Of a DNA stretch of 64,000 nucleotides, positions 630-26,916 are shown piece by piece. The DNA is from Sipunculus nudus. Lineage: Eukaryota; Annelida; Sipuncula; Golfingiida; Sipunculidae. The translations under genes and the position numbers were made by a program. The stretch's first letter is position 1. Each line of letters begins with the position of its first letter. The stretch spans positions 53,307,659 through 53,371,658 of the forward strand of contig CM049313.1 of the NCBI GenBank assembly GCA_026874595.1, in the 5' to 3' direction. The notes beneath the pieces were generated by a model. It was given only the letters and a program-made list of their open reading frames with translations, did no database searches and was not told the origin of the DNA.

Positions 630-3600
630 CACCCTAATCAAAACATCTTTCAATCAACCACAACGACCATTGTTGCAATAACCACGACCAACGAAACAAC
701 CACGATTGGTACCACTTCCATTCAACCAATCTCCACTATCATTACAGCGTCAACCACCACCAAGGAAACTACCACGAATGTTACCACCAGAATTCAAACA
801 ATCATCACGATAAGTACAGCAACAACCACGACCAACGAAACAACCACGAATGCTACCACTTCCATTCAACCAATCACCACGGTCAGTACATCCAAAACCA
901 CCACAAAAGAAACTACCACTAATGTTCCAACAACCTTTCGACCAATAACTACGATCAGTACAGCCACTACTATGAACAACGAAACTAGCACCAATGGTAC
1001 CACTTGGAGTCAACCAATCACCACGATCAGTACAGCCACAACCACCAACAACGAAACTACCACGAATGGTTCCACTTCTATTCAATCAAACACAACGTTC
1101 AGTACAGTCACAACCACGACAAACGAAACTACCACAAATGGTATCACTTCCATTCGACCAATCACCACGATCAGTACATCCACAACCACCAACAGCGAAA
1201 ATTCCACGAATGGTACAACTTCTATTCAACCAAACACAACGGTCAATCATGTCACAACCACGACCAACGAAACTCCCACGAATGTTACAACCACAAATGG
1301 TCCAATCATCACGATAAGTACAGCCACAACCACCATCAACGAAACTACCATAAATGGTACCACTTCCATCAAACCAATCACCACGATCAGCACATCCACA
1401 CCCACCACCAACGAAACTACCACGAATGGTACCACTTCTATTCAAAAAATCACCACGATCAGTACAGTAACAACTACGACCAACGAAACTACCAGAAATG
1501 GTACCACTTCCATTCAACCAATCACCGCGATCACACCACCCACAACCACGAACAACGAAACTCCTGCGAAAGTTACAACCACCATTCGTCCAATCACCAC
1601 GATCAGTAAAGCCACAACCACGAACAACGAAACTTCCACGAATGGTACCACTTCTATTCAACCAAACACAACGGTCAGTACAGTCACAACCACGACCAAC
1701 AAAACTTCCACGAATTTTTCAACCACAATTCGTCCAATCACCACGATCAGTACAGCCACAACCACAAACAACGAAACTTCAAAGAATGGTACCACTTCCA
1801 TTCAACCAAAAACAACGGTCAATACAGTCTCGACCACGACCAACGAAACTACCACGAATGTTACAACCACGATTGGTTCAATCACCACGATCAGTACAGC
1901 TACAAATACGAACAATGAAACTACCTCGAATGGTACCACTTCTACTCAACCAAACATCACGAGCAGTACTGTCACAACCACGACCAACGAAACTACCACG
2001 AATGTTACAACCACTATTCGTCCAATCACCACGATCAGTACAGCTACAACCACCAACAACGAAACTTCCACGAATGGTTCCACTTACATTCAACCAAACA
2101 CCACGATCAGTACAGCCGCAACCACGACCAACGAAACTACCACGAATGGTACCACTTCTATTATTCCAAACACCACGATCAGTACTGCCACAACCACGAC
2201 CAACGAAACTACCACAAATGTTACAACCACTATTCGACCAAACACCAAAATCAGTATAGCTACAACCACGACCAACGAAACAACTACGAATGGTACCACT
2301 TCCTTTCAACCAGACACCACGGTCAGTACAGCAGCAACCACGACCAACGAAACTTCCACGAATGGTACCACTTCCATTCAACCAATTACCACTATCAGTA
2401 CAGTCTTAACCACGACCAACGAAACTCCTACGAATAGTTCCACTTCTTATCAACCAATCACCACTATCAATCCAGCCACAACCACCACGAACGAATATCC
2501 CGCGAATGTTACAATCACCACGATCAGTACAGCCACAACAACCAACAACGAAACTACAACGAATGGTACGACTTCTATTCAACCAATCACCACGATCAAT
2601 ACAGCCACAACCACCAACAACGAAACTTCCACGAATGGTACCACTTCCATTCAACCAAAAACAACGGTCAATACAGTCTCGACCACGACCAACGAAACTA
2701 CCACGAATGTAACAACCACAATTGGTCCAATCACCACGATCAGTACAGACACAACAACGAACAGCGAAACTACCTCGAATGGTTCCACTTATATTCAACC
2801 AAACACCACGATCAGTACAGCCGCAACCACGACCAACGAAACAACCACGAATGGTACCACTTCTTTTCAACCAATCACCACGATCAGCACATCCACACCC
2901 ACCACCAACGAAACTACCACGAATGTTTCAACCACAAATGGTCCAATCATCACGATCAGTACAGCCACAACCACGAATAACGAAACTACCTTGAATGGTA
3001 CCACTTCTATTCAACCAAACATCACGATCAGTACTGTCACAACCACGAACAACGAAACTACCTCGAATGTTACAACCACTATTCGACCAATGACCACGAT
3101 AAGTACAGCCACAACCACGATGAACGAAATTACAACTGATGGTACCACTTCCATTCAACCAATAACCACGATCAGCACATCCACACCCACCACCATCGAA
3201 ACTACCACGAATGTTACAACGACTATCCGTCCAATCACCGCGATCAGTACGGCCACAACCACGACCAACGAAACTACCACGAATGGTACCACTTCCATTA
3301 AACCAATCACCACGATCAGTCCAGACACAACCACGACCAACGAAACTACCATGAATGGTACCACTTCTATTATTCAAAACACCACGATCAGTACTGCCAC
3401 AACCACGACCAACGAATCTACCACTAATGTTACAACCACCGTTCGACCAAACACCACAATCAGTACAGCTACAACCACGACTAACGAAACAACTAGGAAA
3501 GATACCACTTTCTTTCAACCAATTACCACGATCAGCACAATTATACCCACCACAAACGAAACTACCACGAATGTTACAACCACTATTCGACCAATCACCA

Positions 3601-6600
3601 CGACCAGTACAGTCTTAACAACGACAAACGAAACGACCACGAATGATACCACTTCCATTCGACCAATCGCCACGATCAGTGCAGCCGCAACCACGAACAA
3701 CGAAACTTCCATGAATGGTACCACTTCCATTCAACCAATTACAACTATCAGTACAGTATTAACCACCACAAACGAAACTACCCCGAATGATACCACTTCT
3801 GTTCAACCAAACACAACGTTCAGAACAGTCACAACCACGACCAACGAACCTACCACGAATGTTACAACCACAATTCGTCCAATCACCACGACCAGTACAG
3901 CCACAACCACCAAGAACAAAACTACCACGAATGGTTCCACTTCTATTCAGCCAAACACAACGTTCAGTACAGTCACATTCACGAGCAACGAATCTTCCAC
4001 GAATGGCTCCACTTCCATTCAATCAAACATCACAAGCAGTACTGTCACAACCACGACCAACGAAACTACCACGAATGTTACAACCACTATTCGTCCAATC
4101 ACCACGATCAGTACAGCCACAACCACCAACAACGAAACTTCCACGAATGGTTCCACTTACATTCAACCAAACACCACGATCAGTACAGCCGCAACCACGA
4201 CCAACGAAACTACCACGAATGGTACCACTTCTATTATTCCAAACACCACGATCAGTACTGCCACAACCACGACCAACGAAACTACCACGAATGTTACAAC
4301 CACCATTCGACCAAACACCAAAATCAGTATAGCTACAACCACGACCAAAGAAACAACTACGAATGGTACCACTTCCTTTCATCCAGTCACCACGATCAGT
4401 AGAGCCGCAACCACGACCAACGAAAATTCCACGAATGGTACCACTTCCATTCAACCAATTACCACTATCAGTACAGTCTTAACCACGACCAACGAAACTG
4501 CTACGAATGCTTCCACTTCTTTTCAACCAATCACCACTATCAATCCAGCCACAACCACCACGAACGAATTTCCCGCGAATGTTACAATCACCACGATCAG
4601 TACAGCCACAACCACCAACAACGAAACTACAACGAATGGTACCATTTCTATTCAACCAATCACCACGATCAGTACAGACACAACCACCAACAGCGAAACT
4701 TCCACGAATGGTACCACTTCCATTCAACCAAAAACAACGGTCAATACAGTCTCGACCACGACCAACGGAACTACCACAAATGTTACAACCACAATTGGTC
4801 CAATCACCACGATAAGTACAGCTACAACCACGAACAACGAAACTACCTGGAATGGTACCACTTCTATTCAACCAAACATCACGATCAGTATTGTCACAAC
4901 CACGACCAACGAAACTACCACGAATGTTACAACCTCTATTCGTCCAATCACCACGATCAGTACAGTCACAACCACCAACAAAGAAACTTCCACGAATGGT
5001 TCCACTTATATTCAACCAAACACCACGATCAGTACAGCCGCAACCACTACCAACGAAACAACCACGAATGGTACCACTTATTTTCAACCAATCACCACGA
5101 TCAGCACATCCACACCCACCACCAACGAAACTACCACGAATGTTACAACCACAAATGGTCCTATCATCACGATTAGTACTGCCACAACCACGAACAACGA
5201 AACTACCTCGAATGGTACCACTTCTATTCAACCAAACATCACGATCAGCACATCCACACCCACCACCAACGAAACTACCCCGAATGTTACGACGACTATT
5301 CGTCCAATCACCGCGATCAGTACGGCCACAACCACGACCAACGAAACTACCACGAATGGTACCACTTCCATTCAACCAATCCCCACGATCAGCCCAGACA
5401 CAACCACAACCAACGAAACTACCATGAATGGTACCACTTCTATTATTCAAAACACCACGATCAGTACTGCCACAACTACGACCAACGAATCTACCACTAA
5501 TGTTACAACCACCGTTCGACCAAACACCACAATCAGTACAGCTACAACCACGACCAACGAAACAACTAGGAATGATACCAATTTCTTTCAACCAATTACC
5601 ACGATCAGCATAATCATACCCACCACAAACGAAACTACCACGAATGTTACAACTACTATTCGACCAATCACCACGATCAGTACAGTCTTAACCACGACAA
5701 ACGAAACGACCACGAATGATACCACTTCCATTCGACCAATCGCCACGATCAGTGCAGCCGCAACCACGAACAACGAAACTTCCATGAATGGTACCACTTC
5801 CATTCAACCAATTACAACTATCAGTACGGTATTAACCACCACAAACGAAATTACCCCGAATGATACCACTTCTGTTGAACCAAACACTACGTTCAGAACA
5901 GTCACAACCACGACCAACGAACCTATCACGAATGTTACAACCACAATTCGTCCAATCACCACGACCAGTACAGCCACAACCACCTGCAACGAAACTACCA
6001 CGAATGGTTCCACTTCTATTCAGCCAAACACAACGTTCAGTACAGTCACAATCACGACCAACGAAACCTCCACGAATGGCTCCACTTCCATTCAACCAAA
6101 CATCACGAGCAGTACTGTCACAACCACGACCAACGAAACTACTACGAATGTTACAACCACTATTCGTCCAATCACCACGATCAGTACAGCCACAACCACC
6201 AACAACGAAACTTCCACGAATGGTTCCACTTACATTCATCCAAACACCACGATCAGTACAGCCGCAACCCCGACCAACGAAACGACCACGAATGGTACCA
6301 CTTCTATTATTCCAAACACCACGATCAGTACTGCCACAACCACGACCAACGAAACTACCACGAATGGTACCACTTTTATTATTCCAAACACCACGATCAG
6401 TACTGCCACAACCACGACCAACGAAACTACCACGAATGTTACAACCACCATTCGACCAAACACCAAAATCAGTATAGCTACAACCACGACCAACGGAACA
6501 ACTACGAATGGTACCACTTCCTTTCAACCAGTCACCACGATCAGTACAGCCGCAACCACGACCAACGAAAATTCCACGAATGGTACCACTTCCATTCAAC

Positions 6601-9600
6601 CAATTACCACTATCAGTACAGTCTTAACCACGACCAACGAAACTGCTACATATGCTTCCACTCCTTTTCAACCAATCACCACTATCAATCCAGCCAAAAC
6701 CACCACGACCGAATTTCCCGCGAATGTTACAATCACCACGATCAGTACAGCCACAACCACCAACAACGAAACTACAACGAATGGTACCACTTCTATTCAA
6801 CCAATCACCACGATCAGTACAGCCACAACCACCAACAATGAAACTTTCACGAATGGTACCACTTCCATTCAACCAAAAACAACGGTCAATACAGTCTCGA
6901 CCACGACCAACGGAACTACCACGAATGTTACAACCACAATTGGTCCAATCACCACGATCAGTACAGACACAACCACGAACAACGAAACTACCTGGAATGG
7001 TACCATTTCTATTCAACCAAACATCACGATCAGTACTGTCACAACCACGACCAACGAAATTACCACGAATGTTACAATCTCTATTCGTCCAATCACCACG
7101 ATCAGTACAGTCACAACCACCAACAAAGAAACTTCCACGAATGGTTCCACTTATATTCAACCAAACACCATGATCAGTACAGCCGCAACCATGACCAACG
7201 AAACAACCACGAATGGTACCACTTCTTTTCAACCAATCACCACGATCAGCTCATCCACACCCACCACCAACGAAACTACCACGAATGTTACAACCACAAA
7301 TGGTCCTATCATCACCATCAGTACTGCCACAACCACGAACAACGAAACTACCTCGAATGGTACCACTTCTATTCAACCAAACATCACGATCAGTACTGTC
7401 ACAACCACGAACAACGAAACTACCCCGAATGTTACAACCACTATTCGACCAATGACCACGATAAGTACAGCCACAACCACGACGAACGAAATTACAACGG
7501 ATGGTACCACTTCCATTCAACCAATAACCACGATCAGCACATCCACACCCACCACCAACGAAACTACCACGAATGTTACAACGACTATTCGTCCAATCAC
7601 CGCGATCAGTACGGCCACAACCACGACCAACGAAACTACCACGAATGGTACCACTTCCATTCAACCAATCACCACGATCAGTCCAGACACAACCACGACC
7701 AACGAAACTACCATGAATGGTACCACTTCTATTATTCAAAACACCACGATCAGTACTGCCACAACCACGACCAACGAATCTTCCACTAATGTTACAACCA
7801 CCGTTCGACCAAACACCACAATCAGTACAGCTACAACCACGACCAACGAAACAACTAGGAATGATACCAATTTCTTTCAACCAATTACCACGATCAGCAT
7901 AATCATATCCACCACAAACGAAACTACCACGAATGTTACAACTACTATTCGACCAATCACCACGATCAGTACAGTCTTAACCACGACAAACGAAACGACC
8001 ACGAATGATACCACTTCCATTCGACCAATCGCCACGATCAGTGCAGCCGCAACCACGAACAACGAAACTTCCATGAATGGTACCACTTCCATTCAACCAA
8101 TTACAACTATCAGTACGGTATTAACCACCACAAACGAAATTACCCCGAATGATACCACTTCTGTTCAACCAAACACTACGTTCAGAACAGTCACAACCAC
8201 GACCAACGAACCTATCACGAATGTTACAACCACAATTCGTCCAATCACCACGACCAGTACAGCCACAACCACCTGCAACGAAACTACCACGAATGGTTCC
8301 ACTTCTATTCAGCCAAACACAACGTTCAGTACAGTCACAATCACGACCAACGAAACCTCCACGAATGGCTCCACTTCCATTCAACCAAACATTACGAGCA
8401 GTACTGTCACAACCACGACCAACGAAACTACTACGAATGTTACAACCACTATTCGTCCAATCACCACGATCAGTACAGCCATAACCACCAACAACGAAAC
8501 TTCCACGAATGGTTCCACTTACATTCAACCAAACACCACGATCAGTACAGCCGCAACCCCGACCAACGAAACGACCACGAATGGTACCACTTCTATTATT
8601 CCAAACAAGACGATCAGTACTGCCACAACCACGACCAACGAAACTACCACGAATGGTACCACTTCTATTATTCCAAACACCACGATCAGTACTGCCACAA
8701 CCACGACCAACGAAACTACCACGAATGTTACAACCACCATTCGACCAAACACCAAAATCAGTATAGCTACAACCACGACCAACGGAACAACTACGAATTG
8801 TACCACTTCCTTTCAACCAGTCACCACGATCAGTACAGCCGCAACCACGACCAACGAAAATTCCACGAATGGTACCACTTCCATTCAACCAATTACCACT
8901 ATCAGTACAGTCTTAACCACGACCAACGAAACTGCTACATATGCTTCCACTCCTTTTCAACCAATCACCACTATCAATCCAGCCACAACCACCACGACCG
9001 AATTTCCCACGAATGTTACAATCACCACGATCAGTACAGCCACAACCACCAACAACGAAACTACAATGAATGGTACCACTTCTATTCAAACAATCACCAC
9101 GATCAGTACAGCCACAACCACCAACAATGAAACTTTCACGAATGGTACCACTTCCATTCAACCAAAAACAACGGTCAATACAGTCTCGACCACGACCAAC
9201 GGAACTACCACGAATGTTACAACCACAATTGGTCCAATCACCACGATCAGTACAGACACAACCACGAACAACGAAACTACATGGAATGGTACCATTTCTA
9301 TTCAACCAAACATCACGATCAGTACTGTCACAACCTCGACCAACGAAACTACCACGAATGTTACAATCTCTATTCTTCCAATCACCACGATCAGTACAGT
9401 CACAACCACCAACAAAGAAACTTCCACGAATGGTTCCACTTATATTCAACCAAACACCATGATCAGTACAGCCGCAACCATGACCAACGAAACAACCACG
9501 AATGGTACCACTTCTTTTCAACCAATCACCACGATCAGCTCATCCACACCCACCACCAACGAAACTACCACGAATGTTACAACCACAAATGGTCCTATCA

Positions 9601-12600
9601 TCACCATCAGTACTGCCACAACCACGACCAACGAAACTACCTCGAATGGTACCACTTCTATTCAACCAAACATCACGATCAGTACTGTCACAACCACGAA
9701 CAACGAAACTACCCCGAATGTTACAACCACTATTCGACCAATGACCACGATAAGTACAGCCACAACTACGACGAACGAAATTACAACGGATGGTACCACT
9801 TCCATTCAACCAATAACCACGATCAGAACATCCACACCCACCACCAACGAAACTACCACGAATGTTACAACGACTATTCGTCCAATCACCGCGATCAGTA
9901 CGGCCACAACCACGACCAACGAAACTACCACGAATGGTACCACTTCCATTCAACCAATCACCACGATCAGTCCAGACACAACCACGACCAACGAAACTAC
10001 CATGAATGGTACCACTTCTATTATTCAAAACACCACGATCAGTACTGCCACAACCACGACCAACGAATCTTCCACTAATGTTACAACCACCGTTCGACCA
10101 AACACCACAATCAGTACAGCTACAACCACGACCAACGAAACAACTAGGAATGATACCACTTTCTTTCAACCAATTACCACGATCAGCACAATCATACCAA
10201 CCACAAACGAAACTACCACGAATGTTACAACCACTATTCGACCAGTCACCACGATCAGTACAGTCTTAACCACGACAAACGAAACGACCACGAATGATAC
10301 CACTTCCATTCGACCAATCGCCACGATCAGTGCAGCCGCAACCACGAACAACGAAACTTCCATGAATGGTACCACTTCCATTCAACCAATTACAACTATC
10401 AGTACAGTATTAACCACCACAAACGAAACTACCCCGAATGATACCACTTCTGTTCAACCAAACACAACGTTCAGAACAGTCACAACCACGACCAACGAAC
10501 CTACCACGAATGTTACAACCACAATTCGTCCAATCACCACGACCAGTACAGTCACAACCACCAACAACGAAACTACCACGAATGGTTCTACTTCTATTCA
10601 GCCAAACACAACGTTCAGTACAGTCACAATCACGACAAACGAAACTACCACGAATGTTACAACGACTATTCGTCCAATCACCACGATCAGTACGGCCACA
10701 ACCACGACCAACGAAACTGCCACGAATGGTACCACTTACATTCAACCAATCACCACGATCAGTCCAGACACAACCACGACCAACGAAACTACCACGAATG
10801 GTACCACTTCTATTATTCAAAACACCACGATCAGTACTGCCACAACCACGACCAAAGAATCTACCACTTATGTTACAACCACCGTTCGACCAAACACCAC
10901 AATCAGTACAGCTACAACCACGACCAACGAAACAGCTAGCAATGATACCACTTTCTTTCAACCAATTACCACGATCAGCACAATCATACCCATCACAAAC
11001 GAAACTACCACGAATGTTACAACCAATATTCGACCAATCACAACGATCAGTGCAGCCGCAACCACGACCAACGAAACTACCACGAATGGTACCACTTCCA
11101 TTCGACCAATCACTACGATCATTGCAGCCATAACAACGATTAAGGAAACTTCCACGAATGTTACAACCACCATTCGACCAATCACCAAGATCAGTATTGC
11201 CACAACCACGACCAACGAAACAACCACAAATGTTACAACCACCATTGGACCAATCACCACGATCAGTACAGCCACTACCACCAACAACGAAACTACAACG
11301 AATCGTACCTCTTCTATTCAACCAATCACTACGATCATTGCAGCCACAACCACGAGCAACGAAACTACCACGAAGGTTACAACCGCCATTCGACCAATCA
11401 CTACGATCAGTACAGCTACAACCACGACCAACGAAACTACCACGAATGGTACCACTTCCATTCAACCAATCACCACGATCAGTCCAGACACAACCACGAC
11501 CAACGAAACTACCATGAATGGTACCACTTCTATTATTCAAAACACCACGATCAGTACTGCCACAACCACGACCAACGAATCTTCCACTAATGTTACAACC
11601 AACGTTCGACCAAACACCACAATCAGTACAGCTACAACCACGACCAACGAAACAACTAGGAATGATACCACTTTCTTTCAACCAATTACCACGATCAGCA
11701 CAATCATACCAACCACAAACGAAACTACCACGAATGTTACAACCACTATTCGACCAGTCACCACGATCAGTACAGTCTTAACCACGACAAACGAAACGAC
11801 CACGAATGATACCACTTCCATTCGACCAATCGCCACGATCAGTGCAGCCGCAACCACGAACAACGAAACTTCCATGAATGGTACCACTTCCATTCAACCA
11901 ATTACAACTATCAGTACAGTATTAACCACCACAAACGAAACTACCCCGAATGATACCACTTCTGTTCAACCAAACACAACGTTCAGAACAGTCACAACCA
12001 CGACCAACGAACCTACCACGAATGTTACAACCACAATTCGTCCAATCACCACGACCAGTACAGTCACAACCACCAACAACGAAACTACCACGAATGGTTC
12101 TACTTCTATTCAGCCAAACACAACGTTCAGTACAGTCACAATCACGACAAACGAAACTACCATGAATGTTACAACGACTATTCGTCCAATCACCACGATC
12201 AGTACGGCCACAACCACGACCAACGAAACTGCCACGAATGGTACCACTTACATTCAAACAATCACCACGATCAGTCCAGACACAACCACGACCAACGAAA
12301 CTACCACGAATGGTACCACTTCTATTATTCAAAACACCACGATCAGTACTGCCACAACCACGACCAAAGAATCTACCACTTATGTTACAACCACCGTTCG
12401 ACCAAACACCACAATCAGTACAGCTACAACCACGACCAACGAAACAGCTAGCAAAGATACCACTTTCTTTCAACCAATTACCACGATCAGCACAATCATA
12501 CCCATCACAAACGAAACTACCACGAATGTTACAACCAATATTCGACCAATCACAACGATCAGTGCAGCCGCAACCACGACCAACGAAACTACCACGAATG

Positions 12601-15600
12601 GTACCACTTCCATTCGACCAATCACTACGATCATTGCAGCCATAACAACGATTAACGAAACTTCCACGAATGTTACAACCACCATTCGACCAATCACCAA
12701 GATCAGTACTGCCACAACCACGACCAACGAAACTACCTCGAATGGTACCACTTCTATTCAACCAAACATCACGATCAGTACTGTCACAACCACGAACAAC
12801 GAAACTACCCCGAATGTTACAACCACTATTCGACCAATGACCACGATAAGTACAGCCACAACCACGACGAACGAAATTACAACGGATGGTACCACTTCCA
12901 TTCAACCAATAACCACGATCAGAACATCCACACCCACCACCAACGAAACTACCACGAATGTTACAACGACTATTCGTCCAATCACCGCGATCAGTACGGC
13001 CACAACCACGACCAACGAAACTACCACGAATGGTACCACTTCCATTCAACCAATCACCACGATCAGTCCAGACACAACCACGACCAACGAAACTACCATG
13101 AATGGTACCACTTCTATTATTCAAAACACCACGATCAGTACTGCCACAACCACGACCAACGAATCTTCCACTAATGTTACAACCACCGTTCGACCAAACA
13201 CCACAATCAGTACAGCTACAACCACGACCAACGAAACAACTAGGAATGATACCACTTTCTTTCAACCAATTACCACGATCAGCACAATCATACCAACCAC
13301 AAACGAAACTACCACGAATGTTACAACCACTATTCGACCAGTCACCACGATCAGTACAGTCTTAACCACGACAAACGAAACGACCACGAATGATACCACT
13401 TCCATTCGACCAATCGCCACGATCAGTGCAGCCGCAACCACGAACAACGAAACTTCCATGAATGGTACCACTTCCATTCAACCAATTACAACTATCAGTA
13501 CAGTATTAACCACCACAAACGAAACTACCCCGAATGATACCACTTCTGTTCAACCAAACACAACGTTCAGAACAGTCACAACCACGACCAACGAACCTAC
13601 CACGAATGTTACAACCACAATTCGTCCAATCACCACGACCAGTACAGTCACAACCACCAACAACGAAACTACCACGAATGGTTCTACTTCTATTCAGCCA
13701 AACACAACGTTCAGTACAGTCACAATCACGACAAACGAAACTACCACGAATGTTACAACGACTATTCGTCCAATCACCACGATCAGTACGGCCACAACCA
13801 CGACCAACGAAACTGCCACGAATGGTACCACTGACATTCAACCAATCACCACGATCAGTCCAGACACAACCACGACCAACGAAACTACCACGAATGGTAC
13901 CACTTCTATTATTCAAAACACCACGATCAGTACTGCCACAACCACGACCAAAGAATCTACCACTTATGTTACAACCACCGTTCGACCAAACACCACAATC
14001 AGTACAGCTACAACCACGACCAACGAAACAGCTAGCAATGATACCACTTTCTTTCAACCAATTACCACGATCAGCACAATCATACCCATCACAAACGAAA
14101 CTACCACGAATGTTACAACCAATATTCGACCAATCACAACGATCAGTGCAGCCGCAACCACGACCAACGAAACTACCACGAATGGTACCACTTCCATTCG
14201 ACCAATCACTACGATCATTGCAGCCATAACAACGATTAAGGAAACTTCCACGAATGTTACAACCACCATTCGACCAATCACCAAGATCAGTACTGCCACA
14301 ACCACGACCAACGAAACAACCACAAATGTTACAACCACCATTGGACCAATCACCACGATCAGTACAGCCACTACCACCAACAACGAAACTACAACGAATC
14401 GTACCTCTTCTATTCAACCAATCACTACGATCATTGCAGCCACAACCACGAGCAACGAAACTACCACGAAGGTTACAACCGCCATTCGACCAATCACTAC
14501 GATCAGTACAGCTACAACCACGACCAACGAAACTACCACGAATGGTACCACTTCCATTCAACCAATCACCACGATCAGTCCAGACACAACCACGACCAAC
14601 GAAACTACCATGAATGGTACCACTTCTATTATTCAAAACACCACGATCAGTACTGCCACAACCACGACCAACGAATCTTCCACTAATGTTACGACCACCG
14701 TTCGACCAAACACCACAATCAGTACAGCTACAACCACGACCAACGAAACAACTAGGAATGATACCACTTTCTTTCAACCAATTACCACGATCAGCACAAT
14801 CATACCAACCACAAACGAAACTACCACGAATGTTACAACCACTATTCGACCAGTCACCACGATCAGTACAGTCTTAACCACGACAAACGAAACGACCACG
14901 AATGATACCACTTCCATTCGACCAATCGCCACGATCAGTGCAGCCGCAACCACGAACAACGAAACTTCCATGAATGGTACCACTTCCATTCAACCAATTA
15001 CAACTATCAGTACAGTATTAACCACCACAAACGAAACTACCCCGAATGATACCACTTCTGTTCAACCAAACACAACGTTCAGAACAGTCACAACCACGAC
15101 CAACGAACCTACCACGAATGTTACAACCACAATTCGTCCAATCACCACGACCAGTACAGTCACAACCACCAACAACGAAACTACCACGAATGGTTCTACT
15201 TCTATTCAGCCAAACACAACGTTCAGTACAGTCACAATCACGACAAACGAAACTACCACGAATGTTACAACGACTATTCGTCCAATCACCACGATCAATA
15301 CGGCCACAACCACGACCAACGAAACTGCCACGAATGGTACCACTTACATTCAAACAATCACCACGATCAGTCCAGACACAACCACGACCAACGAAACTAC
15401 CACGAATGGTACCACTTCTATTATTCAAAACACCACGATCAGTACTGCCACAACCACGACCAAAGAATCTACCACTTATGTTACAACCACCGTTCGACCA
15501 AACACCACAATCAGTACAGCTACAACCACGACCAACGAAACAGCTAGCAATGATACCACTTTCTTTCAACCAATTACCACGATCAGCACAATCATACCCA

Positions 15601-18450
15601 TCACAAACGAAACTACCACGAATGTTACAACCAATATTCGACCAATCACAACGATCAGTGCAGCCGCAACCACGACCAACGAAACTACCACGAATGGTAC
15701 CACTTCCATTCGACCAATCACTACGATCATTGCAGCCATAACAACGATTAACGAAACTTCCACGAATGTTACAACCACCATTCGACCAATCACCAAGATC
15801 AGTACTGCCACAACCACGACCAACGAAACAACCACAAATGTTACAACCACCATTGGACCAATCACCACGATCAGTACAGCCACTACCACCAACAACGAAA
15901 CTACCACGAAGGTTACAACCGCCATTCGACCAATCACTACGATCAGTACAGCTACAACCACGACCAACGAAACAACCATGAATGGTACCACTTCCATTCA
16001 ACCAATTACAACTATCAGTACAGTATTAACCACCACAAACGAAACTACCCCGAATGATACCACTTCTGTTCAACCAAACACAACGTTCAGAACAGTCACA
16101 ACCACGACCAACGAACCTACCACGAATGTTACAACCACAATTCGTCCAATCACCACGACCAGTACAGTCACAACCACCAACAACGAAACTACCACGAATG
16201 GTTCTACTTCTATTCAGCCAAACACAACGTTCAGTACAGTCACAATCACGACAAACGAAACTACCACGAATGTTACAACGACTATTCGTCCAATCACCAC
16301 GATCAGTACGGCCACCACCACGACCAACGAAACTGCCACGAATGGTACCACTTACATTCAACCAATCACCACGATCAGTCCAGACACAACCACGACCAAC
16401 GAAACTACCACGAATGGTACCACTTCTATTATTCAAAACACCACGATCAGTACTGCCACAACCACGACCAAAGAATCTACCACTTATGTTACAACCACCG
16501 TTCGACCAAACACCACAATCAGTACAGCTACAACCACGACCAACGAAACAGCAAGCAATGATACCACTTTCTTTCAACCAATTACCACGATCAGCACAAT
16601 CATACCCATCACAAACGAAACTACCACGAATGTTACAACCAATATTCGACCAATCACAACGATCAGTGCAGCCGCAACCACGACCAACGAAACTACCACG
16701 AATGGTACCACTTCCATTCGACCAATCACTACGATCATTGCAGCCATAACAACGATTAACGAAACTTCCACGAATGTTACAACCACCATTCGACCAATCA
16801 CCAAGATCAGTACTGCCACAACCACGACCAACGAAACAACCACAAATGTTACAACCACCATTGGACCAATCACCACGATCAGTACAGCCACTACCACCAA
16901 CAACGAAACTACCACGAAGGTTACAACCGCCATTCGACCAATCACTACGATCAGTACAGCTACAACCACGACCAACGAAACAACCATGAATGGTACCACT
17001 TCCATTCAACCAATTACAACTATCAGTACAGTATTAACCACCACAAACGAAACTACCCCGAATGATACCACTTCTGTTCAACCAAACACAACGTTCAGAA
17101 CAGTCACAACCACGACCAACGAACCTACCACGAATGTTACAACCACAATTCGTCCAATCACCACGACCAGTACAGTCACAACCACCAACAACGAAACTAC
17201 CACGAATGGTTCTACTTCTATTCAGCCAAACACAACGTTCAGTACAGTCACAATCACGACAAACGAAACTACCACGAATGTTACAACGACTATTCGTCCA
17301 ATCACCACGATCAGTACGGCCACAACCACGACCAACGAAACTGCCACGAATGGTACCACTTACATTCAACCAATCACCACGATCAGTCCAGACACAACCA
17401 CGACCAACGAAACTACCACGAATGGTACCACTTCTATTATTCAAAACACCACGATCAGTACTGCCACAACCACGACCAAAGAATCTACCACTTATGTTAC
17501 AACCACCGTTCGACCAAACACCACAATCAGTACAGCTACAACCACGACCAACGAAACAGCTAGCAATGATACCACTTTCTTTCAACCAATTACCACGATC
17601 AGCACAATCATACCCATCACAAACGAAACTACCACGAATGTTACAACCAATATTCGACCAATCACAACGATCAGTGCAGCCGCAACCACGACCAACGAAA
17701 CTACCACGAATGGTACCACTTCCATTCGACCAATCACTACGATCATTGCAGCCATAACAACGATTAACGAAACTTCCACGAATGTTACAACCACCATTCG
17801 ACCAATCACCAAGATCAGTACTGCCACAACCACGACCAACGAAACAACCACAAATGTTACAACCACCATTGGACCAATCACCACGATCAGTACAGCCACT
17901 ACCACCAACAACGAAACTACAACGAATCGTACCTCTTCTATTCAACCAATCACTACGATCATTGCAGCCACAACCACGAGCAACGAAACTACCACGAAGG
18001 TTACAACCGCCATTCGACCAATCACTACGATCAGTACAGCTACAACCACGACCAACGAAACAACCACGAATGGTACCACTTCCATTCAACCAATCTCCGC
18101 TATCAGTTCAGCGTCAACCACCACCAACGAAACTACCACGAAATTTACAACCACCATTCGACCAAATACAACGATCAGTACGGCCACAACCACCAACACC
18201 GAAACTACCACGAATGGTACCACTTCTGTTCAACCTATCACCACGATCAGTACAGCCACAACCACGACCAACGACACTACCACGAGTGGTACCACTCCCA
18301 TACGACCAAACACAACGATCAGTACAACCACAACCACGACATACGAAACTACCACGAATTTTACCACTTCCATTCAACCAATCACGATGATTAGTACAGC
18401 CACAACCACGATCAACGAAACCACCACAACAGACACCAGCACAATTCAAC
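630..18450 (+). repeat. 72-bp coding minisatellite with higher-order repeats
   Basis: The basic period is 72 bp (24 codons). Recurring variant landmarks show higher-order periods: 2073 bp (3515 to 5588), 2289 bp twice (5588, 7877, 10166), 1512 bp (10166 to 11678), 1584 bp (to 13262), 1512 bp (to 14774) and 1008 bp twice (15018, 16026, 17034). 1512, 1584 and 1008 are 21, 22 and 14 basic units. 2073 and 2289 are 28 and 31 units plus one 57-bp short unit. Blocks near the 3' end are nearly identical to each other, while the 5' part is more diverged. Because every unit is a multiple of three, several other frames on both strands also stay open for long stretches (up to 447 codons on the minus strand). 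Confidence 0.9.
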
Positions 18451-18579
18451 CAACCAACGCAACCAGCACTACTGCTGCAACCACGATAACCGGTATTACC
18501 ACACTTGAAACCATCGCTAGTTCAGCTCTGTTGCCTTCGGCATCCAAAGCTCCACCTGGTGTTCAGCCACCAGACTTCA
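630..18579 (+). CDS. giant Thr/Asn-rich tandem-repeat exon of a membrane mucin-like glycoprotein
   Basis: One frame is open without a stop from 630 to 18602 (nearly 6000 codons). It is built of about 240-250 copies of a 24-residue unit, consensus NETTTNGTTSIQP followed by ITTISTATTTT. A second unit type (NVTTTIRP in place of NGTTSIQP) frequently alternates with it. About half the residues are Thr, and a typical unit holds two N-x-T sequons (NET and NGT or NVT). This predicts a long, extended, heavily N- and O-glycosylated extracellular rod. Only three Cys codons occur in the array (5985, 8274, 8799). The first in-frame ATG is at 972, inside the array. Repeat homology and the open frame run back to about 650, so that ATG is unlikely to be the true start; a spliced upstream exon with the signal peptide is expected, perhaps entering at the AG at 746-747. 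A strong donor, GTAAGT at 18580, ends the exon in phase 1; reading through would stop at 18602. Whether the unit count is exact depends on assembly quality. Confidence 0.85.
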
Positions 18580-18912
18580 GTAAGTTTATATTTTTGTTGT
18601 AACATGATGGAGCTATGGTTGGTTTACATTTAATATTTGCTCAGTTCTCAGACCATCCGCGCAAATTGGAAATTTATTCAGGAAAGGATTCCTATCTACG
18701 AATCATTCAAGCATTATTATTTTTTGTTTTGTTATTATTTTTATTATTATTATTCCTTATCTTATATTTTAAACAAATTTGCATCCAGCAAATTTAATTG
18801 ACTGATACAAAAATATGTCCATACCGTGTATGCTTTCACTTATGTATTAATAATAGATGTAAAACTCTCAGTGATTTCTTATCTGAATAAGATCTTTTAC
18901 CTTATTTTCAAG
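18580..18912 (+). other. intron 1 of the mucin gene
   Basis: Starts with GTAAGT and ends TTTTCAAG after a pyrimidine-rich tract. AT-rich with no other feature seen. Confidence 0.6.
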
Positions 18913-19034
18913 GTGGGAGGTCCGTCCATATCAGATTTGAACTTTTGTTTAGACGACCAAGAGCTCTGAACAATGAACATGTACCGTTTTTCCGCCAGGC
19001 TCAGTCTGAACGAGGATCCAACATCACACAGCAG
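18913..19034 (+). CDS. mucin-like gene, exon after the repeat (start of possible SEA-like region)
   Basis: The acceptor is TTATTTTCAAG at 18902-18912. The exon takes two bases to complete the codon left by the repeat exon (phase 1) and ends in phase 0 at a GTATTG donor, which is a weak match to consensus. It encodes about 40 residues including VHIRFELLFRRP and FFRQAQSERGSNITQQ, with one N-glycosylation sequon (NIT). The composition changes abruptly from Thr/Asn-rich repeat to an ordinary folded-domain sequence. A beta-strand followed by a helix would suit the start of a SEA domain, which commonly sits between mucin repeats and the membrane, but the match is structural guesswork only. Confidence 0.55.
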
Positions 19035-19482: not shown

Positions 19483-19523
<41 letters not shown>

Positions 19524-19553: not shown

Positions 19554-19990
19554 CAGTAGTTCGTCACAGCCGGGTTTTAAGTAGACCGATATATAAGATG
19601 TCCATTTATTAAAAAAATATATAATTAAAAATAAATTAAAATTTAAGTGTTTTCTTCTACTTTTATTCTACATAATGATTCATTATATACACGTACATGT
19701 ATATTTGTTCAAATTAAAAAAAAACGAATATCATATGCACAGCAAACCTTGCTAAAATGTAATATTATAATCTATACGTGAGTCGAAAAACATGGCTTGT
19801 GTGTTTTAATGACAAATACAAAATTACAAGCTCTGTAAATAATTTGACAACAGTCTAATTTGATATAACTGTGCGGGGCATGGCGGTAAGAATATAAACT
19901 AAATTGTGCAGGCTGTGTGTGCTTGTGTGTTTGTGGTTGGGGGTTGGGCTGGGGGGTTGCTGGTCGGGGAGAGCTGCGGGTGACATAAGC

Positions 19991-19993
<3 letters not shown>

Positions 19994-20054
<61 letters not shown>
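19994..20054. repeat. (AT)n microsatellite
   Basis: About 30 uninterrupted AT dinucleotides. Confidence 0.95.
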
Positions 20055-20058
<4 letters not shown>

Positions 20059-21378
20059 TTAATGGTATTTGATGTATAACAATTGTTCTTATTAAACTTT
20101 TATACACAGTGATAAACAGAGGAAATCATCAGTATTTTGCACCGCAGCAGCGGACGATGATTTTAATGCTGAACATATCAGTTCAATCATACATTTTTAA
20201 CGAAAATGACCTTTTACTCTTACTCAGGGAACAAAAAATACAAAAATACACCTATATAATTATAACTTTACAGCTGCCATTGGTTAAAATAGAAAAAAAA
20301 GTCTATCTTTGAGAGCTTAATTAGATATTGTTCATAACCAGATTTGTAGGTTGAAACTAAAATAAGAAGTGATCCATACCGGTCCGGCCCGTTTTAGGTC
20401 CAGGAACATGCGGGTCCGGTATTTGGGGTCAGTTCCAACCCAAAATTTTGGACCGGACCAGTCCAAGCGGTTCGGTTCTGCACTTCTAGTAGTAAAGGCT
20501 GCTATTAGGGTTATTGGCCGTACAGATGTCTCTCAAGCATAATCTCAAACACAGTCTCATGCACATCACACAAGTGCTTTACAAATTTAATGGTGCTGGA
20601 AAATGAGAAAACAAATGGACTGACTATAGTTCACGATTTGTCTGCCAAGTCATACATACAATTCAAACGGCAACTCAAATGACCTTCATTAAAACACTCG
20701 GCAATCCTATTAAATAATTTAAAGTTACTTGTTGACATCACCAAACGCGGCGCTTCCACTTCCATGTACATGAGAATCCCACCACATTTAGCAATAGAAT
20801 AGTGCATGATAATATCAAAGCGACCATATTTGGCCCTAGAATAGTCTCCCTTTCGGACAACATAAGAATAGAATAAATAGAAAAGAATATTCTATGATAA
20901 TATGATGTAATGACTGACATAGTCTACTGATATAAAAATTCAGAATGGAAATAAACTGGAAATTACGTACCTCGAAAAAACACATGACCTGACTAGTTGA
21001 TTTGCCAGCAAAGTATCGTTCATCAACAAGCTTAGCGGCAAAATCAGGTACACTTTTAACATGGAAATGAAGAATACTTTTGAAAATGGAGTCGGTCTCA
21101 ACAACATATACATTAAGTAAACATATAAATTATTAATCCTAATTTTACATCAAAGATATATTAATACCTTGTTACTGCATAGAAATTTTAAATTGTCAGA
21201 AATTAATCACGAGTTCAAAGGTTACGCAAACCAGGTGCTTTCCATTAAGATGGCATACAATGTTGGCGCCGCTAATCAGTATAATGCGCGCTACTTTCTG
21301 ACCAATTTTCATATAGCGTGCCCACTTCTGTACACTAATCACATCAAAGTAATTCCAGCCGAAACTGACGTCGTTAAA

Positions 21379-21381
<3 letters not shown>

Positions 21382-21427
<46 letters not shown>
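21382..21427. repeat. (AT)n microsatellite
   Basis: About 23 uninterrupted AT dinucleotides. Confidence 0.95.
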
Positions 21428-21430
<3 letters not shown>

Positions 21431-21547
21431 AAAGGGAATGTGTGTAATCATTAAATAGATGTATAACCTAAAACCTAAGTTAATACATAAAGTTCCCCAT
21501 TCACTCAGGGACTTCACGTATTTACTAAAAATTCAAGGAAATACGTA

Positions 21548-21551
<4 letters not shown>

Positions 21552-21593
<42 letters not shown>
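21552..21593. repeat. (AT)n microsatellite
   Basis: About 20 AT dinucleotides. Confidence 0.95.
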
Positions 21594-21595
<2 letters not shown>

Positions 21596-21797
21596 TATAT
21601 TATAAAGACAGTGGAGCCCCCTCTTATCGGAGATTCTGTGTCCACCCTTAAATTTTCGCCTAACACATAATCAAATTTGATCGTATAAACAGAAACCCTA
21701 TTCATTATAAATCACTTTGAAATCCTTATATCTCATACATTAGTAACATTCTTTCATGTGAGCTAAATATGCACCGTGTGTTACAATATTTTTTCAG

Positions 21798-21859
21798 CTA
21801 TCTGCACTCTTTCTCAGAACACTTGGATTTCAGTTAGTGTCTATTCAACGCTTACCCAC
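21798..21859 (+). CDS. mucin-like gene, short 62-bp exon
   Basis: Acceptor ATATTTTTTCAG (21786-21797), donor GTGAGT at 21860. It enters in phase 0 and leaves in phase 2, exactly what is needed to join the exons at 18913-19034 and 22678-22883. It encodes 20 residues, LSALFLRTLGFQLVSIQRLP, and a split Thr codon. The helix-turn-strand look would suit the middle of a SEA-like fold. It was found only by phase-matching and is too short to trust without transcript support. Confidence 0.5.
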
Positions 21860-22677
21860 GTGAGTATGTATGTGGTTTAATAAACATTACTAGAAATTTG
21901 CATTCTGAGAGAGCAGAACTCCACCAAGACAGGTCATTACCCTATATGGCATTGTCAGAAATGTGCGATAAACACAAAAGGACTATCACGGTATGTCACA
22001 GGATAATGACACTGAGCACCATCTAGTGGCAATAAATTGAACAAGACAACATTGTCAGAAATACAGCAGTTTCTTTTTTCATTTTTTTTTTAAATCCTAG
22101 ATCCAGATGGGGATCCGTAAATTTAAACATTTCTTCCTTGTATTATTGCCGGGCTATCCAAGAAAATAAATCGAAATCTGTTTTTTTTTTATTATTGTTG
22201 CTTGAAATGTTGCTAACAGACAGAAAAACAAATCAACACCGCCTAAAGTTTACTCCCGCCACCTGGCGGAGGAAATTATGTTACAGGTTACTCATCTACA
22301 TTCAAATTCTCTAAAAAATTGATTAAATGTTGCCGAATAAAAGCAGATTTCTAGAATGCCCAAAGTAATAACATACATGACCGTATCTACAATATTATGT
22401 GTTTATTCCAATTGTTTCCCATTTGAACCTTCTCAAACACAACCATATTCTCTTACACTGGAGTAAAGTATATCATTATTTTCAATGGCTCCCGCTTCTC
22501 CAGTAAGCACTAAAATTGCTTTGAAATAATTAACAATTAACATTTTTTTATGAATAACGATGATATTTTAAAAAAAAAGTGTGATCATTATGTTATTTAT
22601 ATAATATCACGGAGTTAATAGAGTCAATGAGCTAATATGATAACATGTACATATATAATTTCAAATCTTTATTTCAG
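21860..22677 (+). other. intron 3 of the mucin gene
   Basis: Bounded by GTGAGT and TTTATTTCAG. AT-rich with poly-T tracts near 22075 and 22180. No other feature seen. Confidence 0.55.
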
Positions 22678-22883
22678 TCAAGATAATTGCGGCCAGCACC
22701 CGTTAGACTATGAAGTTCGTTATAATTCAGGGGATATTGCGGCTGGTTGTATCGGGGGTTGTGTTTTGATTAATCAAATCGAAGACCGTGTGATGCCGCA
22801 TATAGGTGACGTCACAGATCACGTGTGTGGGGCTGTTGATGCCAATTCAACTACGTCATCAATGACCCAGCAGCTTCAAAAAG
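22678..22883 (+). CDS. mucin-like gene, Cys-containing extracellular exon
   Basis: The acceptor CTTTATTTCAG (22667-22677) and donor GTAGGA at 22884 flank a 206-bp exon that enters in phase 2 and leaves in phase 1. It encodes about 68 residues with four Cys (in DNCGQHP, AAGCIGGCV and DHVCGAVD), the strand-like DYEVRYNSGD and one sequon (NST). Codon use and composition are those of a folded extracellular domain. The other two entry phases hit stops, so this frame is the only usable one. It probably forms the second half of a SEA-like or other juxtamembrane domain. Confidence 0.65.
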
Positions 22884-23745
22884 GTAGGAAGAGCTGACCG
22901 TACAGTAATGTAGAGCACAATCTACCTATAGACGCAGAAAGACATAGATAAATTTAGAATGATTTCTGTTGCGAAAAGGGCCAGCATTAACATATATACT
23001 TGAATATATAAAGAAATATTCAACCAGAATTACATAATTTGAGTAGGTCGGTTTAATTCAGTCTTTAAAAGATTAGCATGTTGGTTAGCGTTTGCATATT
23101 CTGTCGTTGTGATACGAACGCACCTTTATTGTTGGTAGATTACTTTCGGGTCTGCGTATCTGAATTAATTTGGCAAGAATTTTTTCCGTATCGTCATCAC
23201 AATATTATCTTCACATATTAAAGTTTCACAAAGTAAGAAGGGTTGATGAATTTATCTCTATATCAATATGGTTTAAACGTGTTTGGGGTGGACTATCCTT
23301 CCGATTACCTTATATTTTTCTTCTTTCTTTCTTCCTTCCTTCCGTTATTTCTTTTTTTTTTCCTCTTGTTCTCTAGTTCTCAAAATCGGCTGATGCTAAT
23401 ACTGATCATTGGTCAAAGTATCAGTAGATTTGTTTATTTTTTACCGATATTTAATGTTGACCATTTCTTAATTTCAAAGGTCGTGACCCCCGTAGGCGAT
23501 CCCTATTATCGCTCAGCACTGCTAATATTTTCACTAAATCTCAAATACGGCTAATAAAAAAAATGATCAATGCAACAGTCACAGGTAACAGATTTGCACC
23601 TGATTTATATATATTAATACACATACTTTGGCCATCACTTAATTCTAAAGTTCGTACACTGCATAACCTATTATCGCTCAGTTTCTTGCGTCCGGGGTCG
23701 AGGTGTATCATGAAGTATCATTACATTAAAAATCTTACATTACAG
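22884..23745 (+). other. intron 4 of the mucin gene
   Basis: Contains a pyrimidine-rich run (23310-23375) ending in a tempting CTCTAG, but the frame beyond it reaches a stop in the required phase. No exon assigned. Confidence 0.5.
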
Positions 23746-23941
23746 AACAAAAACGACTCAGCAATCCATGCCTGATGAACCCTCACATCTGCTCAAATGT
23801 GAACTCTAGCTACACGTGCACGTATAATGGTGGCGGACTGACATACTGTAATGACGTGTGTGTTGACAGATCGTACTGCAGGGCGGGTAGATGCGGGATC
23901 GTTAAGAATAGGGACGGATATAACGAGTCGAGGCATTGCTG
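23746..23941 (+). CDS. mucin-like gene, Cys-rich EGF-like exon
   Basis: Acceptor TTACATTACAG. Enters in phase 1, matching the previous exon. It encodes about 65 residues with eight Cys spaced as in EGF-like modules (SNPCLMNPHIC, SYTCTYNGG, TYCNDVC, SYCRAGRC, ESRHC) and two N-glycosylation sequons (NSS, NES). The donor chosen is GTACGC at 23942, which is weak but leaves phase 2 as the next exon requires. The join then reads RHCWCHPFWF, placing a C-x-C pair typical of the end of an EGF domain. Unspliced, the frame runs on to TAG at 23980. EGF modules next to the membrane are usual in transmembrane mucins. Confidence 0.65.
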
Positions 23942-24566
23942 GTACGCCCAAAAAACAGAGGTCGTTTCGATTTATAACTAGCAATGGACTACCGGGAACA
24001 TTCTTCTCACCTGTAAACCAACACAATCAATCCACTTCTGAAAATTTAAGATTAAGAAAAGGTCTTCTTTTTTAATGGCATATACGTACGCTTAAATTTT
24101 TTTTTTCGTAAAGTCCTTTCCACAAAATATTCCTTTTCATCAGTTAATGGATATTTACTCTTATACACGCGGCACTGTTGTCTTGAGAAGTCCCAGTGCT
24201 TTGTGGGGAAATGATTTCTGTACCCACAATCCCTTAACAGCAGAGCAGTACGCGAGTAAACATTTATTGTGTCATTATATTTAACATGATAAAAAAAATT
24301 TATTTTTTTATTATAATATTAATAATGTATATATAATATTAAACACTTATTTCCTGTACAATGGAAATATCGCAATACGTATCGCCATACGCTACCACAT
24401 ATCGCAATATATTGCAATACGAAATTCGTAAGCGATACCCAGCCATAATATTTTCAGTGAATTTGTGCCCGTTTATACATCGAGGTCTGATGGGGGACGA
24501 TCGGCCAAAGTCTTCCGAACTGACTTGTACAATCACGTTATTTTCTTTTTATTTCTCTCCCGCCAG
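23942..24566 (+). other. intron 5 of the mucin gene
   Basis: AT-rich. 24359-24445 carries ATCGCAATAC-type repeated motifs that look like part of an interspersed repeat. The acceptor tract TTTTATTTCTCTCCCGCCAG at its end is strong. Confidence 0.55.
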
Positions 24567-24737
24567 GTGTCACCCGTTCTGGTTCCGTCAGGGGTCTGCG
24601 TCTCGGCCGTTCTGCGTCTCAGCCTGGGTGCTGGTTGGACCTATCATAGGGGTTGGGTGTGTTCTCATCGTCATGGTGGTCGTTGCTATATTTCCGGTTA
24701 TACGGAAGAGAAAAATGAAGCAAAACGACCACGCCAT
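24567..24737 (+). CDS. mucin-like gene, transmembrane exon
   Basis: A very strong acceptor (CTCTCCCGCCAG, ending at 24566) and donor GTAAGA at 24738. Enters and leaves in phase 2. It encodes 57 residues: the end of the Cys-rich region (CHPFWFRQG, SRPFC), then a hydrophobic helix VLVGPIIGVG to VVVAIF (24628-24693), then a basic stop-transfer run, IRKRKMK. This orientation (Cys-rich outside, basic inside) is that of a type I membrane protein and fixes the mucin array as extracellular. This exon, rather than the repeat, is the best evidence that the + strand of the array is the coding one. Confidence 0.75.
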
Positions 24738-24892
24738 GTAAGAACATTTAAACCCAATTAAGTGAAATTTATTGTAATTGATCTGACAATGGGAAATATT
24801 TTATAATATCAGGTCAGTGCGATGTGAACCAAGGCATCCTAGTTGGGGCATTATAAAACATATCTGCTATGAACATGCACAGAAATGATCAA

Positions 24893-24932
<40 letters not shown>

Positions 24933-24999
24933 TACTGTACGCGTAATTATTTTGATTTATCGAAATTCTCATCGGTCATTGATCTGGTTTTTTTTGTAG
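24738..24999 (+). other. intron 6 of the mucin gene, with (AT)n run
   Basis: GTAAGA to TTTTTTTTGTAG. It includes an (AT)n microsatellite at 24894-24928. Confidence 0.7.
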
Positions 25000-25057
25000 C
25001 TTGGAGACACCTAACTTAGCTTATGTATCTTCTGACGAGGAGGTCCACGTGTGCGCG
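25000..25057 (+). CDS. mucin-like gene, cytoplasmic-tail exon 1
   Basis: Acceptor TTTTTTTTGTAG, donor GTAAGT at 25058. Enters in phase 2 and leaves in phase 0. It encodes 19 residues plus one split codon: LETPNLAYVSSDEEVHVCA. NLAYVSSDEE has an acidic Ser cluster that could be a casein kinase 2 site and a Tyr that could be a signalling or endocytic motif; both are suggestions only. Confidence 0.65.
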
Positions 25058-26255
25058 GTAAGTTAAGTAGTTCAGCAAACACCATAATTCATACTCCACC
25101 TACAAGATTGCAGTGTAGTTAGCTTCAGAATTACCGAAGAAAATCACGCTTGTTAAATCAATATTAATATTTATATATCAAATACATAAAGTGTTACTTA
25201 ATTAAACAGACCAATTTATTCAACCAAACTGGTGGACATTTCTGTCTAGAAAAAAATTTGCTTAAGAGAGAACGTTTAATAGAGCTGTGTCAATGTACCG
25301 ATATAATATCGATATATATATATCGATACTCCACCTTGATACGATACGCCTTGAAAGCTGTATAATCGTATCGTTGAATCAAAATTACTGCTAACAAATA
25401 TAGATACAACCCGAACCTGGACAATTGTATGAACTATTTATAAAGCTTTATTTCTTATGGCTTCATAAGACTTAAATAATGTTACATAAAGCCATAAATA
25501 ATATTATATGTATTTTGGTATGATTGACTAGATGAATATGCATATATACTTGTCGGCGCTTCCATGCCAAGCCGTCGTGTGTGAGCGATGTTAGGCTGAT
25601 ATTATGAACGGTCCTAGTTTGTGTTGAAATATTTATTGTATGTTTTTCTTTTTTCATTTTTATTCCATTTAGGGTATGTATTTCATTTTATAATCCATTA
25701 TTTTATCTCTGATTGTTTTAAGCGAAGCAATTTCTCAAGATCCATTGAAAATTACATGTTTTGAAAAAAAAAAAAACATGTTCGGCAACGGGTGAAACAT
25801 GAAGTGGAAGCCTTTGGTGGAAAATGAAATACTAGTTTACACGGAAAATGTGAATAAGGGGATTAACATTCCCAGAAACATACTAAACTCTGTAATTACA
25901 TGAAATAAAAATACTATAATCTCTTAATAATATGTTAATATATTGATTCAGGGGATGAGGGGCACCGTGAGGCAAAGGAATAAAAATCGAGTTCGAAAGT
26001 TTAATACCCAACAGTTACTATCCTATTAAGCATATCAGGTTAAAGAAAACGGAGATACGACGTATCTAAATATTACATGTTATCTTATGCCATTTATGAA
26101 ACGGAAAAGTTGGCCCATTATTTGAAAAGAGTGCCTTCCAACCAAATGGGCTCAAATAAATATATATTCCTCCCGACTCAAATTCATTTATATTAATCTT
26201 GGCTCAAATGAATATATATATTACTCTGGATTATAATTATATATTTATATATATA

Positions 26256-26313
<58 letters not shown>

Positions 26314-26396
26314 GGCTCGAATTAGTATATAATCCTCTGGGTTCAAATTAATATATATTTCTCTGGATTCAAATAAATATATATTACTCTGGGTTA

Positions 26397-26443
<47 letters not shown>

Positions 26444-26706
26444 GGGCTCGAATAAGTATATATTCGTCTGGGCTCAAATTAGTATATATTCCTCTTGGCT
26501 CAAATTAGTATATATTCCTCTGGGCTAAAATTAATATATAGTATCTTGGCTCAAATTCAGGGCTCAATTTGGAATATAATCCTCTCGGCTAAAATTGATA
26601 TATAATCCTCTGGGCTTAAGTAAATATGTATCCCTCTTGATAAATTTGATACTCCGCGGAGGAATGCATGTGCTCCCTGAATTAAAATTTAATTAAATGT
26701 TACCAG
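25058..26706 (+). other. intron 7 of the mucin gene
   Basis: Contains a palindromic ATCGATATATATATCGAT stretch near 25305-25325 within what looks like an interspersed repeat, a poly-A tract at about 25764, and the 26-bp minisatellite and (AT)n runs of 26139-26640. Ends in TGTTACCAG. Confidence 0.6.
26139..26640. repeat. ~26-bp AT-rich minisatellite interleaved with (AT)n runs
   Basis: The unit is close to GGGCTCAAATTAGTATATAT followed by TCCTCT, repeated with variation about 16-18 times. Two long (AT)n runs (26241-26310 and 26399-26441) sit inside it, as if individual units had expanded into dinucleotide repeats. Confidence 0.8.
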
Positions 26707-26916
26707 GTATCCCCGCCGGTACAGGAGAGCCTGCAGCGGTACGCTGAGATGTCACCCGAAGAGCTAGCCACCACTGTTGATGAGGAAGCCTTATTAGAAA
26801 ACTTAAAGAACGTCGACACCAGTCAAAGGGCAAGTATTCCCGCCCTGACTATATTTAGTGGCGTTATTGTGACGTTCTTAAAACTCGAAGTATTGTTAAT
26901 ATTGTCTATGGTATAA
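26707..26916 (+). CDS. mucin-like gene, last visible coding exon (cytoplasmic tail 2)
   Basis: The acceptor TGTTACCAG (ending 26706) enters in phase 0, matching the previous exon. It encodes an acidic tail: VSPPVQESLQRYAEMSPEEL and later DEEALLENLKN, 41 residues up to Arg at 26829. There are two possible ends. A GC-type donor (AGG followed by GCAAGT at 26830), a near-perfect GC-AG consensus, would splice to an exon I could not identify. Otherwise the frame reads through to TAA at 26914-26916, adding 28 mostly hydrophobic residues. The abrupt change from acidic to hydrophobic after 26829 favours splicing; an AATAAA at 27236 favours ending here. Confidence 0.6.
   Translation, partial: VSPPVQESLQRYAEMSPEELATTVDEEALLENLKNVDTSQRASIPALTIFSGVIVTFLKLEVLLILSMV

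Follow-up and report, generated by a model that had tools for sequence, protein, structure and literature searches.

A giant Thr-rich repeat exon and a candidate membrane-anchored mucin-like gene in Sipunculus nudus

Vertebrate transmembrane mucins of the MUC3/12/13/17 type share a plan in which a region rich in proline, threonine and serine (PTS) is combined with SEA and EGF domains, a transmembrane helix and a cytoplasmic tail. Repeat-coded mucins evolve fast and are difficult to assemble, and in our judgement annotation often overlooks them. The architecture of the MUC3/12/13/17 proteins is set out in PMC9080433, which gives MUC1 no EGF domain and describes two invertebrate transmembrane mucins, the mucin1-like and mucin4-like proteins of Actinia tenebrosa. 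We describe herein a locus in a 64,000-nucleotide stretch of the Sipunculus nudus genome (GenBank assembly GCA_026874595.1, contig CM049313.1, positions 53,307,659 to 53,371,658, forward strand; hereafter the window). Its plus strand very probably contains most of a gene that encodes a giant mucin-like type I membrane glycoprotein, including a repeat exon of almost 18 kb. The gene model lacks a signal-peptide exon and a terminal exon, and is thus incomplete at both ends.

Like MUC3/12/13/17, the locus encodes PTS-type repeats, a juxtamembrane region that is rich in cysteines at EGF-like intervals, a single transmembrane helix and a short cytoplasmic tail. Unlike them, it has no SEA domain by Pfam, motif or pairwise test, resembles EGF by spacing only, has Asn-rich repeats with about two N-X-S/T sequons per 24 residues, and showed no sequence homology in the searches made. 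The Actinia mucins likewise possess PTS regions and a C-terminal transmembrane helix; however, according to PMC9080433 they carry recognised SEA or NIDO-AMOP-VWD domains, whereas Pfam finds none at this locus. With MUC1 the locus has PTS repeats and a membrane anchor in common, but MUC1 contains a SEA domain (detected by Pfam at 8.5e-14 in our positive control, a human sequence matched by MUC1 chains in the PDB) and the locus gave no SEA match. A membrane-anchored mucin is an already known type of protein, and the membrane-adjacent part encoded here matches no catalogued domain. On the joined model the composition and the single anchor are those of membrane mucins, SEA was not found as tested, and the evidence on EGF and the signal peptide is equivocal; we file the protein as mucin-like rather than placing it in the MUC3/12/13/17 group.

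In keeping with animal DNA, the window is low in GC, rich in AT microsatellites, shows multi-exon gene structure and includes a rhodopsin-type G-protein-coupled receptor (GPCR) gene. An open reading frame (ORF) begun by ATG 972 extends to 18602 on the plus strand (5,876 codons), and its frame contains no stop in the 5,983 codons from 630 to 18579. The tandem array within this open frame has a period of 72 bp and 247.3 copies, and its 5,916 residues are 43.4% T, 8.0% S and 5.1% P (T+S 51%). Mucin-level composition is given in PMC9080433 as more than 40% T+S with about 5% P, and the tandem-repeat domain falls in that range. Sequons number 504, against 299 (standard deviation 12) in shuffled residues, an excess that is descriptive only, the repeats not being independent. 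Copies at lag 72 diverge by about 23%. At lags of 1008-3096 bp there are near-identical runs (at least 98% in 300-base windows) that range in length from a few hundred bases up to about 3 kb; of the seven lags examined, 1008, 1512, 1584, 2289 and 3096 bp show recently duplicated blocks. Reshaping of the array is therefore probably still going on, and the length seen in the assembly calls for caution.

Over the array, the six frames hold 68, 0, 78, 150, 929 and 31 stops, the zero belonging to the ORF frame. Copy pairs at lag 72, which are not independent of one another, differ in that frame by 960 synonymous changes versus 662 expected, and by 1,251 non-synonymous changes versus 1,516 expected. 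Stop-type changes are absent at lags 72, 144 and 216 bp, where 33, 29 and 31 were expected, and the dN/dS-like ratios are 0.57, 0.63 and 0.62, respectively. A comparison of nearest copies, which has little power, points in the same direction (90 synonymous changes versus 72; no stops versus 3 expected). The array is under frame-specific selection in the ORF frame, which supports coding.

A first-pass annotation had joined the repeat exon, through a donor at 18580, to seven small exons downstream. The resulting model comprises the following features.

630-18579, plus strand: giant repeat exon, a stop-free open frame with a provisional 5' boundary
680-18427, plus strand: tandem array of a Thr-rich 72-bp (24-residue) unit, defined by repeat detection, composition and sequon count
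18580-18912, plus strand: predicted intron 1, GTAAGT...AG, with a read-through stop at 18600-18602
18913-19034, plus strand: candidate exon 2, membrane-proximal ectodomain; phase 1 to 0, GC 0.48, present in both best chains
21798-21859, plus strand: candidate exon 3; GC 0.42, ordinary for the region; an alternative acceptor at 21818 scores higher
22678-22883, plus strand: candidate exon 4, four cysteines, no known domain match; from in-phase junctions, Pfam search and chain search
23746-23941, plus strand: candidate exon 5, cysteine-rich with EGF-like spacing; weak acceptor
24567-24737, plus strand: candidate exon 6, last ectodomain cysteines, transmembrane helix and stop-transfer RKRKMK; GC 0.54
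25000-25057, plus strand: candidate exon 7, cytoplasmic tail
26707-26829, plus strand: candidate exon 8, acidic cytoplasmic tail; probable GC-AG donor at 26830

The joined tail is 316 residues long and contains one transmembrane helix (maximum 19-residue Kyte-Doolittle hydropathy, KD19, 3.04) with RKRKMK immediately after it. Fourteen cysteines precede the helix, four sequons lie in the non-repeat ectodomain, and the cytoplasmic part of 72 residues has 14 D/E and 8 K/R. The helix, basic anchor and acidic tail read earlier from these exons are thus all present, and under the predicted splicing a single helix and tail lie C-terminal to the PTS region. One of 858 random control chains, all open and phase-matched and drawn from 105 of the 325 control sequences (no usable chain came from the remaining 220), had a comparable anchor, and none combined an anchor with at least 10 cysteines; a smaller first run gave anchor features in none of 167 chains. 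Random chains built in the true region, where the same transmembrane exon could be used, had the anchor in 46 of 261 cases. It is this protein content, and not the phase of the exons, that supports the gene model.

The junctions are largely as first described. The donor GTAAGT at 18580 is in phase 1, with exon 1 ending at 18579 and GT at 18580-18581; all seven downstream exons start after AG and chain in phase, leaving no stop in 6,182 codons. Six of them end before GT, but the last (26829/26830) has no GT donor, its boundary reading GGGCAAGT, of the GC type. The eight exons therefore join as proposed, but the set is probably incomplete at both ends. The accompanying argument that such phase agreement would be improbable by chance did not survive: the best chains in 60 Markov controls averaged 7.3 phase-matched open exons (maximum 15) without composition scoring and 4.5 with it, and those in other stretches of the window had 5 to 15, so that phase agreement was rejected as evidence for a gene. 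Our chain search was begun at the donor at 18580, with site thresholds near the weakest listed sites and consensus values as site weights; exon 8, having no GT donor, could not enter it. Blind to the listed exons, the search without composition recovered each of the six GT-donor exons exactly and added five others; with composition, five of the six were exact, the sixth took acceptor 21818, and four others were added. With composition the chain scored 124.6, versus a Markov mean of 18.3 and maximum of 52.4. The exons have a GC content of 0.42-0.54 compared to an intron mean of 0.32, and for six of them this is higher than in at least 97% of same-length intron windows.

The listed exons are among the best candidates, but the sequence accommodates other in-phase candidates equally well, so that the number of exons is provisional. 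A real gene with a different set of exons, using for example acceptor 21818 or an exon at 23480-23584, is a variant of our model rather than an exclusive alternative, and it would make the ectodomain partly wrong. We regard it as a real, if minority, possibility: the four to five further in-phase exons in the best chains speak for it, whereas at least one of them, 19912-19979, is GT-rich low-complexity DNA, and the listed exons alone yield an even ectodomain cysteine count.

Several observations weigh against the membrane-mucin model. Site strength is uneven, the acceptor at 23746 ranking 108th of 407 and the donor after 18579 ranking 40th of 516, and exon 3 is not distinct from intron windows in GC. 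When a base-position model was trained on GPCR exons from the window, the proposed frame came top among the six frames in just one of the seven exons; by amino-acid composition it did so in three. Without composition, the chain score of 61.0 stands above the Markov mean (31.6) but below the maximum (73.6), and other stretches reach 83.5; with composition, other stretches (three stretches, two strands, three phases) span 29.6 to 140.3, the top value coming from the strand that holds one receptor exon. The thresholds and consensus weights used also limit these scores. The anchor criterion was set after the protein was known, and the window controls overlap one another. Within the array, minus-strand frame -0 likewise has a synonymous excess (ratios 0.65, 0.77 and 0.74), yet contains 150 stops. 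No usable signal-peptide exon was found in 1-1000. Two homologue searches, with candidates of about 178-567 and 550-1750 residues, returned nothing; this says little, because a GPCR control from the window also returned nothing, and the database may lack the lineage.

The frame statistics, which gave no clear support to the small exons, also bear on a second explanation, namely that the array encodes a secreted mucin-like protein ending at 18602, with the downstream exons belonging to another gene or being non-exonic. Phase-matched chains arise readily by chance, and the stop at 18600-18602 lies close behind the donor. On the other hand, the downstream exons hold a coherent type I anchor of a kind found in only one of the 858 control chains, and they include very strong sites, the acceptor at 24567 ranking first of 407 and the donor after 25057 first of 516. 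We consider a solely secreted product improbable; secreted and membrane forms could coexist through retention of intron 1. Least credible by far is a non-coding satellite kept open by an inherited stop-free unit, for while a 72-bp unit, a multiple of three, holds a frame open cheaply and the nearest-copy comparison expected only three stop-type changes, the complete lack of such changes at lags of 72, 144 and 216 bp, the in-frame synonymous excess and a frame open across the entire array all argue otherwise.

The membrane-mucin model fared less well at the level of named domains. A Pfam search of the joined protein, proposed earlier as a check, matched neither SEA (PF01390) nor EGF at E 10. 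The supposed SEA-like region was not borne out by other means either: the tail has no G-S-V-V-V autoproteolysis motif, and against the MUC1 SEA domain the region scored no higher than shuffled versions of itself (local alignment, p 0.14; end-free global, p 0.24), so that this comparison was rejected as support. In the supposed 10-Cys EGF-like region, six of the ten juxtamembrane cysteines do show EGF spacing, C-x(3-7)-C-x(3-6)-C-x(n)-C-x-C-x(n)-C; among 20,000 shuffles, 0.5% reproduced the strict form of this spacing and 6% a looser one. The PROSITE patterns PS00022 and PS01186 were not found in the tail. A single-sequence structural model of exon 5 alone was too poor to use (mean predicted local distance difference test score, pLDDT, 49); it matched nothing in the PDB at E ≤ 0.001. 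A PDB sequence search gave 34 matches, the best at E 0.33, which were taken as chance, and tblastn and blastn within the window found no paralogue of the tail, only the exons themselves and chance matches at E 0.12 or above. No publication on this gene was found among the literature matches listed, as judged from titles and the openings of abstracts. Of the transmembrane-mucin architecture first claimed, then, a single-pass membrane mucin-like protein is backed by content (array selection, anchor, and 14 cysteines compared with controls), while SEA is unsupported and EGF reduces to cysteine spacing.

At the 5' side, only one of 18 ATG-started ORFs in 1-1000, that of ATG 59 (36 codons), begins strongly hydrophobic, and the sole plus-strand donor scoring above 4 in 6-700 lies at 479, past the stop of this ORF. 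The signal-peptide exon may lie to the left of the window. The first acceptor scoring at least 7 in the open frame would start the repeat exon at 748 in phase 1, making that exon symmetric (phase 1-1); it is one option only, as the array contains 15 acceptors that score at least 7, with the highest score at 4387. A scan for bacterial-type promoters in 1-700 (3 sites versus 2.1 expected) was discarded, the model being inapplicable to an animal gene. A 57-codon minus-strand ORF at about 233-406, which starts MAAPKSGFENYL, points away from the array and has no Pfam match, could be either the opening exon of a divergent gene or a chance occurrence.

At the 3' side, GGGCAAGT at 26830 ranks first of 315 GC dinucleotides by GC-donor partial score, and to judge from this sequence a GC-AG donor most likely closes exon 8. 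This makes the stop at 26914-26916 doubtful as a natural end; reading through to it lowers the GC content to 0.36 and adds a second hydrophobic helix (KD19 2.14). Use of the GC donor would permit the following, speculative, end.

26953-26991, plus strand: candidate terminal exon of 12 codons plus stop, phase 0

This candidate is the nearest of 31 listed in 26890-33000 (acceptor score at least 5, at least 8 open codons).

If the membrane-mucin model is correct, a single repeat exon of almost 18 kb would encode about 5,900 residues of Thr-rich 24-residue repeats, predicted to form an extended rod that is densely O- and N-glycosylated. The small exons would add a cysteine-rich membrane-proximal module, presumably disulphide-bonded, with EGF-like cysteine spacing, followed by one transmembrane helix and an acidic tail that may serve in trafficking or signalling. 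At the cell surface, such a protein could act as a membrane-tethered barrier, spacer or anti-adhesive coat. Retention of intron 1 would end the protein at 18602 and might yield a short soluble or secreted form. We suggest, tentatively, that the membrane-mucin architecture arose here by convergence, through repeat expansion in an unrelated type I receptor-like protein. A juxtamembrane module that is neither SEA nor standard EGF, together with a repeat possibly suited to O-glycosylation and, with about 500 sequons, to N-glycosylation as well, would suit such an origin, which we nonetheless hold to be doubtful.

Elsewhere in the window, the rhodopsin-type receptor is encoded on the minus strand by two exons, 33239-34423 and 37003-37731, with matches to 7tm_1 (E 3e-05) and Git3 (E 7e-04) that are both below Pfam's cut-off; a homologue search with it gave no matches. 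Its frame stays open beyond the last helix, adding a tail of 276 residues made up of 9-residue TGNTPVPSS-type repeats (T+S 44%, P 16%) and encoded by a 27-bp array at 33079-34012. If this is how it is spliced, the mucin-like repeat tail would make it an unusual receptor. Matching blocks at about 43500-51900 and 53600-62600, with offsets of about 9.6 to 12.6 kb and mostly 79-91% alike, suggest a segmental duplication, as judged from the 20 of 44 direct-repeat families listed. A dispersed repeat occurs at 28265-28962 and 59568-60269 (92-97% alike in the two listed blocks, 31.3 kb apart), and about four copies of a 324-bp tandem unit occupy 49316-50683. Rfam had no match in the window.

If the membrane-mucin model holds, a repeat exon of nearly 18 kb coupled to a membrane anchor would test whether membrane mucins share a common SEA-EGF plan or reach their architecture by convergence, and it would provide a test case for the role of N-glycans in mucin rods.

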